A DNA stretch of 64,000 nucleotides from Hyperoplus lanceolatus (lineage: Eukaryota; Chordata; Actinopteri; Uranoscopiformes; Ammodytidae). Of this stretch, positions 16,101-18,730 are shown piece by piece. Position 1 is the stretch's first letter. The number at the start of each line of letters is the position of its first letter. The position numbers and the translations under genes were made by a program. The notes under the pieces were generated by a model, which was not told where the DNA came from, ran no database searches, and was given only the letters and a program-made list of their open reading frames with translations. The DNA lies in assembly GCA_026929865.2 (NCBI GenBank), contig CM049418.1, positions 14,879,501 to 14,943,500 on the forward strand, given 5' to 3'.

Positions 16101-18730
16101 GCCCTCACCTGTTAAACAGCTGGTCTGTGTCCAGCCCTGGTTCATCCTCCCTCACTCTCTCCATGAAGTCACAGTCTCTGGAGGTCTGCTCCACAAACTG
16201 GGCCAGGCCGGGCGCCAGCGGCCGCAGCCTCACGCCCATGTGACAGCCACTGTTGGACTTTAGGGTCTCCGTGGCCACAGCGTCCAGCGCCGCCGCCTCC
16301 GTGATGCAGCCCGGTGTGGGGGCTTGGACGTGGGGTTGAGGGGCCTGGGAGTGAGGGTGAGGGGCCTGGGAGTGGGGGTGAGGGGCTTGGGAGTGGGGGT
16401 TGGAGGCTTGGGAGTGAGGGTGAGGGACCTTAGAGTGAGGGTTGGAGGTGTGGGGGTGAGGGTTGGAAGCAAGGGAGTGGGGTTGAGGGGCGTTGGAGTG
16501 AGGGTTGGAGGCTGCTTGGGAGTGAGGGTTGGAGGAGGCTTGGGAGGGAGCATAAGGGGCCTCGGAGTGAGGGTGAGGGGCCTGGGATTGGGGGTGAGGG
16601 GCCTGGGAGTGAGGGTTGGAGCTGTTCTCGGAGGCGGACCTCAACATGCTCACCTCTGGGTCTCCGGGCCAAAACGAGATCTGACTGACTCCAGCTGGAG
16701 GAATGAAGGGGGAAAAGAAATGTTGTTCTGTTTTATATGCATTTACTGTCTGTCTATCTATCTATCTATCTGTCTGTCTGTCTATCTATCTATCTATCTA
16801 TCTATCTATCTATCTATCTATCTATCTATCTATCTATCTATCTATCTATCTATCTATCTATCTATCTATCTATCTATCTATTTCCCCAGTAGAGGTGGAG
16901 CAGAGCGTGATAAAAAAAACAAAAAAAACACAGAGTTAATACACAGTCTAGGCTCTGTAAAACAGGCATGTTGCTAGCTAAAATGGCCCCTATTTGTTTC
17001 CATACCGGTTTACAGAGCCTAGGCCGTGTATAAACAGCATATTTTCCTTAGCGGCGCACACACAGGACACACTTGATTGTATTCCCTCACCGTTGATGAT
17101 CATCTTGAGGCAGGTGGCACAGGGTCTCCTGGAGAAGTAGAGGTGACAGTGGGCAAGGGCTGGCCCATGTTGGAGGATGGCAGCCTGGCCTGCATGGAGC
17201 TCAGGCCCAGAGCAATGGAGACCCAACACCTGACTGACCTTCACAACCACCAGGCCCACACGCAAGACCTGCAACACCGCATATTAAGAAACAACACAGT
17301 TAAAGGTTCAGTACGCGGAATGGTCAGTTTAGCTAACTTCCTGTCAGTGACTGCAGTTAGCAGTCCCCTCCCTCGTCCCTACGTCACCACATTAATGGAC
17401 TGCGGTCTTCAAGCAGCGAGTTATCTAGCATCATCTCAGATCCGTAAGTGTGATAAAACATGATAAAAAACCATCAAAACAGACATTGGGAAGGATTTTT
17501 ACCTGCTCCGCCATTGTAGGCGCATACACATTCACCCATCTGTCGCTCTGCACGTGCACCGGCAGATAGACGGGTGCCGGTTTGTAGCGTTCTCTCTTCT
17601 GATTGGTTATCAGTAGTGGGATCCCCGAAAAGTTTATTTGCCGATTACATGCAGAGCGGGTGACTGAGAGATCGGCTTTATGAAACGTGCACACTATATA
17701 AGTGATCACTGTATGAATAAAGAGCTATTTAACAGTTATATAACAATAAATCACTTGCTTCACCTTTAATTTCAACCCAGAACTTTTTTGGTAAATGTCC
17801 ATTGTAAACGTTCTATTTACTCTATTGACCCACCTGACTGTGTGTGTTAGCGCCCTCTTCAGGCTGCTCCTGTGGAAACATCTCCATCCACAAGCTCAAC
17901 AGGGTGTACAGGTTTACCTTTGATAGCCTGGGGTCATGGCCTGGACACACACACACACACACACACACACACACACACACACACACACACACACACACAC
18001 ACACACACACACACACACACACACACACACACACACACACACACACACACACACACACACACACACACACACACACACACACACACGGAGTGAAGATAGA
18101 TTGATGCTTTGCTGGTATAAAGGTGTAATTACTCTGGCATGTGTGTGTGTCTCTGTCTGTCTGTGTGTCTGTCTGTCTGTCTGTCTGTGTAGAACGTCAT
18201 ACATTTGGAGGAAAGGTCAAGGGTCTCCCATATGCAAGGTACAAATGAATACACAGCAGCAAAAACAGGTCATTATATCAATAATACAGTTATGTCATCG
18301 CTAATGGCCCCATGCATGTTATATTTGGTGCGTCTTATAGCTATGTTGCATGCAAAGTGGTACACGTCAGTTAAACTACACTCAGATTTGCATGTGCAAT
18401 TGTTTGGACGACGAGAATATCTAGAATAGAGGGTACACTGGACTTTAAGTGTAGGCAATGGCTATTATATACTTGGAAATATTGACGATATTGGATATTT
18501 AACCGCCATGCTTAGTTGCATTGGTTGCATTGAAGAACAGGCATTTACATAGATGAACCATTATTATAGCGCGATGTCTCTTGTGTGTCTCACCGCATAG
18601 ATAGTATATAAAAGATCTCACCTTGCACGCGGCTGTCAGTCTGGCTGCCGCTGTCCTTCGTAACTCGCCCCGGCTCGACAATATGATTCGCCCCTGGTTC
18701 GGCAAGGTTCGTCATCTCAAGCCCTTCCAT
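1169..18730 (-). CDS. cdadc1: CDADC1, cytidine and dCMP deaminase domain-containing protein 1 (spliced, 11 coding exons)
   Basis: Zinc-dependent deaminase; the vertebrate family has been reported to deaminate dCTP to dUTP. Coding exons in gene order: 18730-18622, 17940-17834, 17268-17091, 16694-16109, 15608-15402, 13179-13076, 11799-11750, 9188-9019, 5725-5536, 1402-1363, 1269-1169 (stop at 1171-1169). Lengths sum to 1842 bp (613 aa) and all junctions are GT/AG and phase-compatible. The start is ATG 18730, directly preceded by an in-frame TGA; an in-frame ATG lies at 18715. The conserved PRLSKVNL motif comes from exon 2. Residues 73-131 form the first deaminase-like domain, with HAGQ at 97-100 (catalytic Glu replaced by Gln) and PCATC at 121-125. 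The active C-terminal domain has HAE at 495-497 and PCDEC at 522-526. Residues 158-259 are a Pro/His/Ser repeat absent from human CDADC1 (about 514 aa). The introns hold many transposons. The family match is clear; exons 10 and 11 rest on short similarity plus phase. Confidence 0.93.
1509..2185. mobile_element. non-autonomous hAT element, 677 bp, copy 1
   Basis: Termini are TAGGGCTGTCAA and its inverse TTGACAGCCCTA. They are flanked by a perfect 8-bp duplication CTACTAAC at 1501-1508 and 2186-2193, the length typical of hAT. Inside are TC- and CA-repeats and no intact transposase. It is nested in MITE-B copy 1. A second copy of identical length is at 11031-11707. Confidence 0.9.
2446..3569. 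mobile_element. TA-flanked TIR element, family GGGG-1 (1124 bp)
   Basis: Inverted termini GGGGAAGGTGGGGTGATTTG and CAAATCACCCCACCTTCCCC, flanked by TA (2444-2445, 3570-3571), lie inside MITE-B copy 1. The motif CACAAATCACCCC recurs internally. A minus-strand frame at 2669-2893 encodes an acidic Ser/Asp-rich tail that could be a transposase remnant. A LINE 3' end is nested at 2850-3165. A distant relative is at 43212-44145. Confidence 0.75.
2850..3165 (+). mobile_element. 5'-truncated LINE 3' end (L2-like)
   Basis: Resembles the C-terminal coding and 3' UTR end of a fish L2-type retrotransposon: a degraded LWNQLPP...FKS...LKTHMYTL-like reading, then a GTGCTTTTATAAATA end and a CTTA repeat tail. 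It is decayed and non-coding. Confidence 0.55.
3629..5253. other. cdadc1 intron 9 without a recognised gene
   Basis: 3785-3910 matches one end of family TTAA-C (see 17304-17765). 4100-4350 has short CT and CA runs. 4337-5180 has only short open frames with no family resemblance. I see no exon. Confidence 0.5.
5254..5516. repeat. MITE-A variant with internal deletion
   Basis: The left end CCCTGCATTCCAAATC and the right end, close to AGAAAGTATGCAGGG, match MITE-A termini. The interior instead matches the variant at 57108-57434. It lies directly beside cdadc1 exon 9 (5536-5725). Confidence 0.65.
5869..6085. repeat. TTAA-G family copy
   Basis: Begins TTAAAGGAATACTTCACC and continues through a segment ending in a TCTTCCCTTGGCCCAGCTGT block. 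The same sequence recurs at 55157-55318, and its reverse complement at about 28400-28580. Confidence 0.6.
6257..6415. mobile_element. small Tc1/mariner-type MITE (GAAGAGACC family)
   Basis: Short element with inverted AAATGAAGAGACCA / TGGTCTCTTCATTTT arms and TA at both borders. A longer relative is at 30745-30984. Confidence 0.6.
6832..8452 (+). mobile_element. Tc1/mariner transposon with long inverted repeats
   Basis: Termini CACTCAACAAAAATATAAAC and GTTTATATTTTTGTTGAGTG sit inside TA duplications (6830-6831, 8453-8454). The inverted repeats run about 280 bp (6832-7112 and 8170-8452) and are nearly identical by eye, so the insertion looks young. It carries one transposase gene and sits within MITE-A copy 1 in cdadc1 intron 8. 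Confidence 0.95.
7130..8133 (+). pseudogene. Tc1-like DD34E transposase with one frameshift
   Basis: Cut-and-paste transposase of the IS630/Tc1/mariner superfamily. The first frame (ATG 7130 to a stop near 7483) holds an N-terminal helix-turn-helix region with MPQALRERAIGML and RSVARAL-type helices. The second frame runs on to the stop after 8133 and holds the catalytic domain: first Asp in FTDESRF, second in QQDNARPH, Glu in SPIEHVWD, with 34 residues between the last two. It also has the VMVWAGI and AYSPDMSP blocks usual for Tc1. The two frames are offset by what looks like a single missing base near 7475, at a run of G in CATCGGGTC. No other break is seen, so this copy is only just dead. 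Length matches a usual Tc1 transposase, about 335-340 codons. Confidence 0.92.
8634..8988. repeat. MITE-B copy 2, uninterrupted
   Basis: Complete copy: AAAAGCCCTACTAACGTCC at the left, GGACATTAGTAGGGCTTTT at the right. It ends about 30 bp from the downstream edge of cdadc1 exon 8 (9019-9188). Confidence 0.8.
9241..10698. repeat. MITE-A copy 2, split by a hAT element
   Basis: Starts CCCTGCATTCC at 9241. It is interrupted at GGTATTTC by the 1084-bp element at 9536-10619, then continues and fades near 10698 without a clear right terminus. It contains the TGACGTCAC motif of the family. Confidence 0.75.
9536..10619. mobile_element. non-autonomous hAT element, 1084 bp
   Basis: Termini CAGTGTTGGGAATAACG and CGTTCCCAACACTG are flanked by a perfect 8-bp duplication GGTATTTC (9528-9535, 10620-10627). 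Subterminal AACGCCGTT and AGTTAC/AATTAC repeats are visible. No transposase frame is present. It is nested in MITE-A copy 2. Confidence 0.92.
11031..11707. mobile_element. non-autonomous hAT element, 677 bp, copy 2
   Basis: Inverted orientation relative to the copy at 1509-2185, same length. Termini TAGGGCTGTCAA and TTGACAGCCCTA. Perfect 8-bp duplication ATCAAAAT at 11023-11030 and 11708-11715. Lies 43 bp from cdadc1 exon 7 (11750-11799). Confidence 0.93.
11865..12316 (+). mobile_element. 5'-truncated L2-type LINE end with (TTA)n tail
   Basis: The plus frame ends in FKSCLKTHLFKLAYPV, typical of the C-terminus of fish L2 reverse transcriptases. A 3' UTR follows with a GGTGCTTTGAAAGGCGCC block and a (TTA)n tail at 12230-12316. 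A poly-C run at 11971-11985 interrupts the frame. Confidence 0.7.
12800..13070 (+). mobile_element. tRNA-derived SINE, copy 1
   Basis: Box-B-like GGTTCGATCTCC, then the conserved TGTCCTTGAGCAAGACACTT segment and a tail ending GACTAATAAAGTAAC. Copies are at 32085-32375, 49145-49425 and (reversed) 54065-54320. Ends a few bases from cdadc1 exon 6 (13076-13179). Confidence 0.75.
13356..13757. mobile_element. MITE-A copy 3
   Basis: Ends GGTTGCGTTCTGAATC and CGCAACC; 3-bp flanking duplication ATA (13353-13355, 13758-13760). Contains TGACGTCAC centrally. No coding capacity. Confidence 0.85.
13926..14289. mobile_element. TTAA-D element, copy 1
   Basis: 364-bp element between TTAA sites (13922-13925, 14290-14293). 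Ends read AGCTGCAGAGTGTAGAATTT and ACACACTGCACCT. Similar to 41394-41763. Confidence 0.75.
14487..15386. repeat. TTAA-D copy 2, interrupted by a retroelement tail
   Basis: The left end AGGTGCAAAGTGTAGAATTT follows TTAA near 14483. The right end TTACACACTGCACCTTTAA is at 15370-15386, beside cdadc1 exon 5. Between about 15005 and 15365 a foreign block ends with TTTCCCTGCTGGGATGAATA, which resembles a LINE or SINE 3' tail. Confidence 0.5.
15632..16012. mobile_element. MITE-A copy 4
   Basis: Ends CCCTGCGTTCTAAATGG and GGAACGCAG. Contains ACGTCACTTCCGGTGCGC, combining a CRE half and an ETS-like core. Lies in cdadc1 intron 4, 24 bp from exon 5. Confidence 0.8.
16322..16640 (-). repeat. cdadc1: coding minisatellite in cdadc1 exon 4
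   Basis: About fifteen imperfect repeats of a 21-bp or shorter unit related to GGCCTGGGAGTGAGGGTGAG. They are read on the minus strand as Pro-His-(Pro-His)-Ser-Gln-Ala variants and stay in frame throughout. They cover residues 158-259 between the two deaminase-like domains. The strand asymmetry is strong (G-rich plus strand). Confidence 0.9.
16747..16880. repeat. (TCTA)n microsatellite
   Basis: Tetranucleotide repeat with a few TCTG units near its start, in cdadc1 intron 3, about 50 bp upstream of the exon 4 acceptor side. Confidence 0.97.
17304..17765. mobile_element. TTAA-C element, copy 1
   Basis: 462-bp element bounded by TTAA (17300-17303, 17766-17769). Left end AGGTTCAGTACGCGGAATGG, right end CTTGCTTCACCT. 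Three more TTAA-C copies are at 33177, 47338 and 50367. In cdadc1 intron 2. Confidence 0.85.
17945..18086. repeat. (AC)71 abutting the cdadc1 exon 2 splice acceptor
   Basis: A 142-bp perfect repeat. In gene sense it is (TG)71 directly followed by TCCAG and exon 2 at 17940, so it replaces the usual polypyrimidine tract. A TG/TCTG tract at 18140-18189 lies further into the same intron. Confidence 0.98.

Follow-up and report, generated by a model that had tools for sequence, protein, structure and literature searches.

Exon 4 of cdadc1, a gene on the minus strand of a 64,000-nucleotide window from the fish Hyperoplus lanceolatus (contig CM049418.1, positions 14,879,501 to 14,943,500), contains a real in-frame coding minisatellite of an already known kind, which occupies a tolerant loop of the encoded deoxycytidine triphosphate (dCTP) deaminase, a vertebrate enzyme, and has no demonstrated function. 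We consider it quite probable that this protein-coding minisatellite grew by slippage or unequal recombination within exon 4 and was tolerated in a disordered loop. The array itself was delimited as follows:

16321..16623, minus strand: coding minisatellite with a 21-bp unit, 14 units and 101 codons (Tandem Repeats Finder, unit parse and codon table).

Tandem Repeats Finder (TRF) called the array at 16313-16616 with a period of 21 bp, 14.1 copies, 75% matches and a score of 258, and additionally reported a period of 63. The 21-bp-type tandem repeat described in an earlier note on this DNA is thus not a chance pattern, and the interval given there, 16322..16640, was true within 17 bp, although the unit parse places the array at 16321-16623. 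Two unit types, P(H/Q)PHSQA and SNPHSQA, alternate irregularly around the consensus PHPHSQA/SNPHSQA. Seven codons make up 12 of the 14 units, while one has eight and one has nine, with units 1 and 5 deviating by 3 and 6 bp. The 101 codons encode mainly proline (23), serine (20), histidine (18), alanine (14), glutamine (12) and asparagine (7), with few others. With 21 bp repeated 14 times in frame within a coding exon, the array is a coding minisatellite, and its unit falls within the 10-100 bp size class of minisatellites (PMC5241972; this and the other papers named here are cited from parts of their text). The array must be regarded as coding because conserved coding sequence lies on both sides of it in the same exon and frame, and this exon is bounded by a splice site on either end; the residues V-S-M-L before the array match human I-S-L-L, which makes both flanks coding. 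An exon 4 of 586 bp, as annotated before, was recovered at 16109-16694 with ag/GT borders and phases that fit the neighbouring exons.

The earlier note had also emphasized that the frame is kept over about 102 codons. The array indeed runs in frame over 101 codons, but this is weaker evidence than implied, as the coding frame stayed open in 37% of 5000 simulations in which the observed substitutions were scattered over the consensus. Of the three frames on each strand, two on the minus and one on the plus strand are free of stop codons in the array DNA. Since the 21-bp unit consists of whole codons, the frame is kept without any need for frame selection; we accordingly rejected selection for frame as an explanation, a multiple of three being sufficient and two length-deviant units too few for a test. 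The mean pairwise identity between units was 0.75, without a clear trend by distance. The array is not fresh, and homogenisation bars its dating. When exon 4 DNA was compared to the genome with simple repeats skipped, it matched itself and one other site (77 bp, 79%) on L002. We set this match aside, since it sits in another histidine- and proline-rich reading frame and looks like compositional likeness. The minus-strand frame around it (L002:1500-1574) includes HPHPHPHHNPHSQ and resembles atrophin/RERE-type sequence.

By sequence alignment, the gene is the orthologue of human CDADC1 over the nine located exons, with (d)CTP deaminase activity and assembly into trimers and hexamers as predicted properties. 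The exons were placed by a spliced gene model and, from exon 2 onwards, also by alignment to human CDADC1, which for exon 4 concerns the flanks of the array:

18622..18730, minus strand: exon 1, with the start codon.
17834..17940, minus strand: exon 2, 107 bp.
17091..17268, minus strand: exon 3, which encodes HAG and PCATC of the N-terminal, inactive deaminase domain.
16109..16694, minus strand: exon 4, 586 bp, bearing the array; acceptor ctccag, donor gtgagg.
15402..15608, minus strand: exon 5, interdomain linker.
13076..13179, minus strand: exon 6.
11750..11799, minus strand: exon 7, 50 bp, the shortest exon.
9019..9188, minus strand: exon 8, encoding HAE of the active domain.
5536..5725, minus strand: exon 9, encoding PCDEC of the active domain.

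Spliced together, the nine exons encode 567 residues, with ag/GT borders throughout (exon 1 begins at the ATG) and compatible phases; those of exon 4 match exons 3 and 5, and the frame continues through five further exons. A phmmer comparison with human CDADC1 (9hfq) gave E = 1.1e-148 and covered both deaminase domains, and PF00383 matched the protein as two stretches, indicating two CMP/dCMP deaminase domains in one chain. The motifs LHAGQ, PCATC and DPE of the inactive domain are kept relative to the human protein, with DPE containing the equivalent of the zinc-coordinating E157, and the active domain retains HAEQN in exon 8 and PCDEC in exon 9. In a protein search of the genome (806.7 Mb in 527 contigs, with only the best candidates scored), all nine matches at E ≤ 0.001 fell at the cdadc1 locus, and no second copy or retrocopy was among them.

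These results also bear on the concern that the repeat length or frame might not be real, or that the gene might be dead. Tandem repeats are a known cause of assembly and database errors (PMC6868369), and the last cdadc1 exon, encoding the C-terminal tail, was not located by a motif-pattern search. However, the units differ at many positions, which makes collapse or stutter unlikely, and the nine located exons are all open, with compatible phases and intact HAE and PCxxC motifs. An assembly artefact or a pseudogene is therefore extremely improbable.

Several further observations concern the same gene. The exon 6 donor, CAG|GTAGCG (13070-13078), is the weakest of the nine modelled donors with a score of 4.77 and precedes exon 7, the shortest exon. 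A perfect 142-bp (AC)71 array directly adjoins the exon 2 acceptor ccag (17941-17944; the region spans 17941-18086), so that (UG)n replaces the polypyrimidine tract in the pre-mRNA. UG-rich sequence ahead of exon 9 in CFTR was described to bind TDP-43 and to promote missplicing (PMC12171016). Skipping of exon 2 of cdadc1 would shift the frame because this exon comprises 107 bp. Intron 3 contains a tetranucleotide array, (TCTA)33, at 16749-16881, leaving 54 bp between it and the exon 4 start. Inside intron 8, a transposase-like plus-strand frame with a DDE_3 domain occupies 7402-8133; it may begin in a frame at 7091-7483 that overlaps it.

The position of the array in the protein was determined by alignment of its two flanks:

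16624..16692, minus strand: exon 4 sequence ahead of the array, GVSQISFWPGDPEVSMLRSASEN, aligned to human residues 145-167 and including the E157 equivalent.
16109..16308, minus strand: post-array part, from CITEAAALDAV, aligned from ITEA to human residues 166-227 and including the N-alpha-4 equivalent.

Human numbers were obtained by subtracting a 20-residue tag from the chain numbers and are consistent with E157 and I158 as published. Relative to human CDADC1, the insert comprises about 106 residues (query residues 156-261). The two matched stretches against 9hfq break at query 155/262 and chain 187/186, and in a separate alignment the post-array part pairs query 130-191 with chain 186-247. 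In the human protein, the N-terminal domain spans residues 31-189 and the linker residues 190-315; residues 163-166 are unresolved in cryo-electron microscopy, helix N-alpha-4 comprises residues 168-183, and E157 coordinates zinc (PMC12088426). For mammalian CDADC1, the same paper gives prominence to testis. As aligned, the insert is located at human position ~166/167, within the inactive N-terminal domain, beside the unresolved loop and directly before helix N-alpha-4.

The insert had been thought to sit between the two deaminase domains, where the human protein was said to have only a few linker residues. Neither statement holds, as human position ~166/167 belongs to the N-terminal domain and 126 residues make up the human linker. 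We therefore discarded a placement in the interdomain linker, which is ruled out by the way the protein aligns with the human chain and by the published domain limits. Downstream of the insert, up to where exon 9 ends, the alignment has almost no gaps (305 query versus 304 chain residues), which means that the interdomain linker itself is not expanded. Human N-alpha-4 is in contact with the substrate-response loop of an adjacent protomer (PMC12088426), and by analogy the insert site would be not far from a working interface, although any effect of the insert there is only hypothetical. A comparison with zebrafish or other fishes at the loop before N-alpha-4 was not found in the parts of the CDADC1 papers PMC12088426 and PMC12184417 that are cited here, and no description of this repeat was among the papers listed in the literature searches.

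A structure model of exon 4 predicted from the single sequence had a mean predicted local distance difference test (pLDDT) score of 48.2 and showed the array without regular secondary structure. It contains a low-confidence helix (pLDDT blocks of 40-42) at residues 132-145 of the exon, matching human 168-181 and thus in the place of N-alpha-4. The modelled helix agrees with the alignment that puts N-alpha-4 after the array, but carries little weight alone.

Considering its composition and position, the array might be a selected low-complexity loop by N-alpha-4, acting for example as a histidine- and proline-rich, metal- or pH-responsive leash or as a Ser-Gln cluster for ATM/ATR-type kinases. 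The earlier proposal of a histidine-rich linker between the domains no longer has a basis, given that the insert lies outside the interdomain linker. An SQ/TQ cluster domain has at least three SQ/TQ motifs within about 100 residues. The array peptide, with 18 histidines and eight Ser-Gln motifs in its 101 residues, qualifies as such a cluster, in which phosphorylation by ATM/ATR-type kinases is putative, and the Ser-Gln count exceeded that of residue shuffles (mean 2.4, P = 0.0002). However, a repeat multiplies any motif of its unit automatically, so that the cluster is a by-product and the count proves nothing, and Ser-Gln is kept in only eight of the 14 units, compared to 12 for Pro-His at codons 3-4. 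The contact of human N-alpha-4 with the neighbouring substrate-response loop also speaks for such a role (PMC12088426), but human CDADC1 is active without the insert.

The ratio of nonsynonymous to synonymous differences (pN/pS) between units was 0.54, with a codon bootstrap range of 0.36-0.93, into which the value for one shifted frame (0.73) also fell, while that for the other (3.0) lay outside. Proline, histidine, serine and alanine at unit codons 3, 4, 5 and 7 are kept in 12-13 of the 14 units. In tests matched to the mutational spectrum, 20 of 50 differences from the consensus were synonymous versus 17.6 expected, which is not a significant excess (P = 0.26), and among distinct changes 7 of 24 were synonymous versus 6.9 expected (P = 0.59, not significant). 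Bias between codon positions was not significant either, distinct changes being distributed 9:4:11 (P = 0.20). We therefore rejected strong purifying selection, for which the ratio of 0.54 alone was suggestive but which the spectrum-matched tests did not support, and conclude that constraint on the array peptide is at most weak. With selection tests weak or null, a selected function of the loop is very unlikely, despite the low pN/pS between units.

Drift by replication slippage, as favoured in the earlier note, consequently emerges as the best-supported reading, with diverged units and no significant synonymous excess. The array would have grown by replication slippage or unequal recombination within exon 4, and the about 106 added residues, rich in proline, serine, histidine, alanine and glutamine, would make up a flexible loop exposed to solvent and tolerated by the folded domain. 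Because gains and losses of whole 21-bp units never break the frame, the array can persist without a function at the protein level. The base composition of the array suggests what may have made it unstable. With a C:G ratio of 176:24 on the coding strand, the plus strand, which is the template, is G-rich. G4Hunter gave a score of 1.49 over the array, whereas 1262 sampled 303-bp stretches outside it scored between -0.64 and 0.63. Predicted quadruplex motifs of the type G3+ N1-7 x4 are present on the plus strand within the array, with 19 overlapping starts and three non-overlapping motifs. In the repeat encoding the C-terminal domain (CTD) of yeast RPB1, a G-quadruplex-like structure and Pif1 affect the repeat number (PMC4882425). 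By analogy with this RNA polymerase II repeat, the G-rich template strand may favour a G-quadruplex-like structure and thereby array instability, and slippage or recombination promoted by such a structure is the likely source of array growth.

Tandem repeats cover 9.15% of the window according to TRF, and the value for dinucleotide repeats is 4.76%; the density in a genome sample was ~4.7% over 17 readable 10-kb stretches, rescaled from 4.23% over 19 counted stretches of which two were all N. Further repeats in the window are a perfect two-copy tandem duplication of 42 bp at 57325-57408 and a second tandem duplication at 63338-63498 (83 bp, 1.9 copies, 91% matches). An exon encoding an RCC1 repeat (PF00415) was detected on the minus strand at 31465-32031, next to an (AAAAT)20 array at 31719-31819. 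We assume from synteny that this exon probably belongs to an RCBTB-type neighbour gene.

Alternatively, the array together with the 10 codons before it might behave as an in-frame intron, or exitron, which some or most transcripts would lose, leaving a loop of near-human length. Candidate splice sites for such an event are:

16648..16656, minus strand: donor-like GAG/GTGAGC (exon/intron break at the slash), phase 0, first possible intronic base 16653, score 10.17.
16344..16604, minus strand: phase-0 acceptor-like AGs in the array with pyrimidine-rich lead; first exon bases 16602, 16581, 16560, 16428, 16365 and 16344.

Removal of, for example, 16653-16345 would excise 309 bp, or 103 codons (the 10 pre-array codons and most of the array), a multiple of three without in-frame stop. 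The donor-like site just upstream of the array scores higher than seven of the nine modelled cdadc1 donors, and donors scoring at least 10 are rare on the minus strand, with 13 in 64 kb. However, the score derives from a weight matrix that was not trained on fish, and a donor of at least 10 also arose in 29% of cases when the 69-nt stretch before the array was recoded synonymously, which makes the site unremarkable given the peptide. Of the 11 internal AGs listed with a lead rich in pyrimidines, the six in phase 0 comprise four CAG, one GAG and one AAG. Their leads are 76-88% pyrimidine, within the 53-100% of eight modelled acceptors, but contain only 12-24% T compared to 41-71% T at these acceptors. 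The array additionally contains 14 branch-like yTnAy sites. Exon 4 thus includes an in-frame, stop-free stretch inside a coding exon with splice-site-like ends, whose splicing is a candidate only. Among published exitrons, disordered regions are enriched, the host exons are long and the splice sites are weaker (PMC4484396), which speaks for this reading. On the other hand, removal would delete VSML, which is aligned with human ISLL including the pocket residue I158. Taken together, we consider exitron splicing unlikely, and conceivable mainly for a minor isoform. Still more speculative is a dual control of length, in which repeat-number mutation and in-frame exitron splicing would set the length of a leash before N-alpha-4 and so tune dCTP deaminase assembly or activity between individuals or tissues. 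It would draw on one strong donor, an acceptor ladder spaced by the 21-bp unit and the contact of N-alpha-4 with the substrate-response loop of the neighbouring protomer, and we consider it highly improbable.

Growth by slippage or unequal recombination in a tolerant loop thus remains our preferred explanation, but some points weigh against it. The pN/pS below one and the kept proline, histidine, serine and alanine codons could indicate some constraint on the peptide. Expression, neutrality and instability of the array are inferred from one assembly, and the structural support comes from a poor single-sequence model.

The array suggests that the loop before N-alpha-4 of the inactive domain can take up about 100 extra residues while HAE and PCxxC are kept. 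In this way, the gene offers a natural test of how much this loop matters for trimer-hexamer assembly, and it provides a defined locus with coordinates for the analysis of coding-minisatellite polymorphism and possible exitron splicing. If only drift is at work, it represents one more tolerated coding repeat.

In comparison with human CDADC1 (PDB 9hfq-9hft; the deposited chain bears an E400A change), the fish protein has the same arrangement of an inactive domain with HAG and PCxxC and an active domain with HAE and PCxxC, and the E157 equivalent is kept. It differs by about 106 extra residues at a site that is a short loop in the human protein, of which residues 163-166 are unresolved. Human residues 53-83, the second N-terminal stretch that is not resolved, align with gaps, and this stretch is shorter in the fish gene. 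The exitrons described in PMC4484396 share with exon 4 the in-frame, stop-free stretch with donor- and acceptor-like ends, although splicing is here a candidate drawn from sequence. The yeast RPB1 CTD repeat resembles the array in its heptapeptide units, in whole-unit changes that keep the frame, in the G-quadruplex potential of the other strand and in the coding-strand C:G ratio, which is 225:44 in yeast compared to 176:24 in cdadc1; in contrast to the cdadc1 array, whose function is hypothetical at most, the CTD is essential, with functional heptads (PMC4882425). Tandem repeats within coding exons of fish genes were also described in codfishes, namely Atlantic cod (PMC5241972) and haddock (PMC5894186). 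In Atlantic cod, 17,800 coding tandem-repeat regions were counted in 7,372 genes, and 12% of repeats meet an indel in the sequenced individual (PMC5241972). However, the haddock paper and most of the cod figures concern short units, whereas the cdadc1 unit measures 21 bp, and the repeat density of ~4.7% sampled here compares to 10.9% reported for cod with other software.

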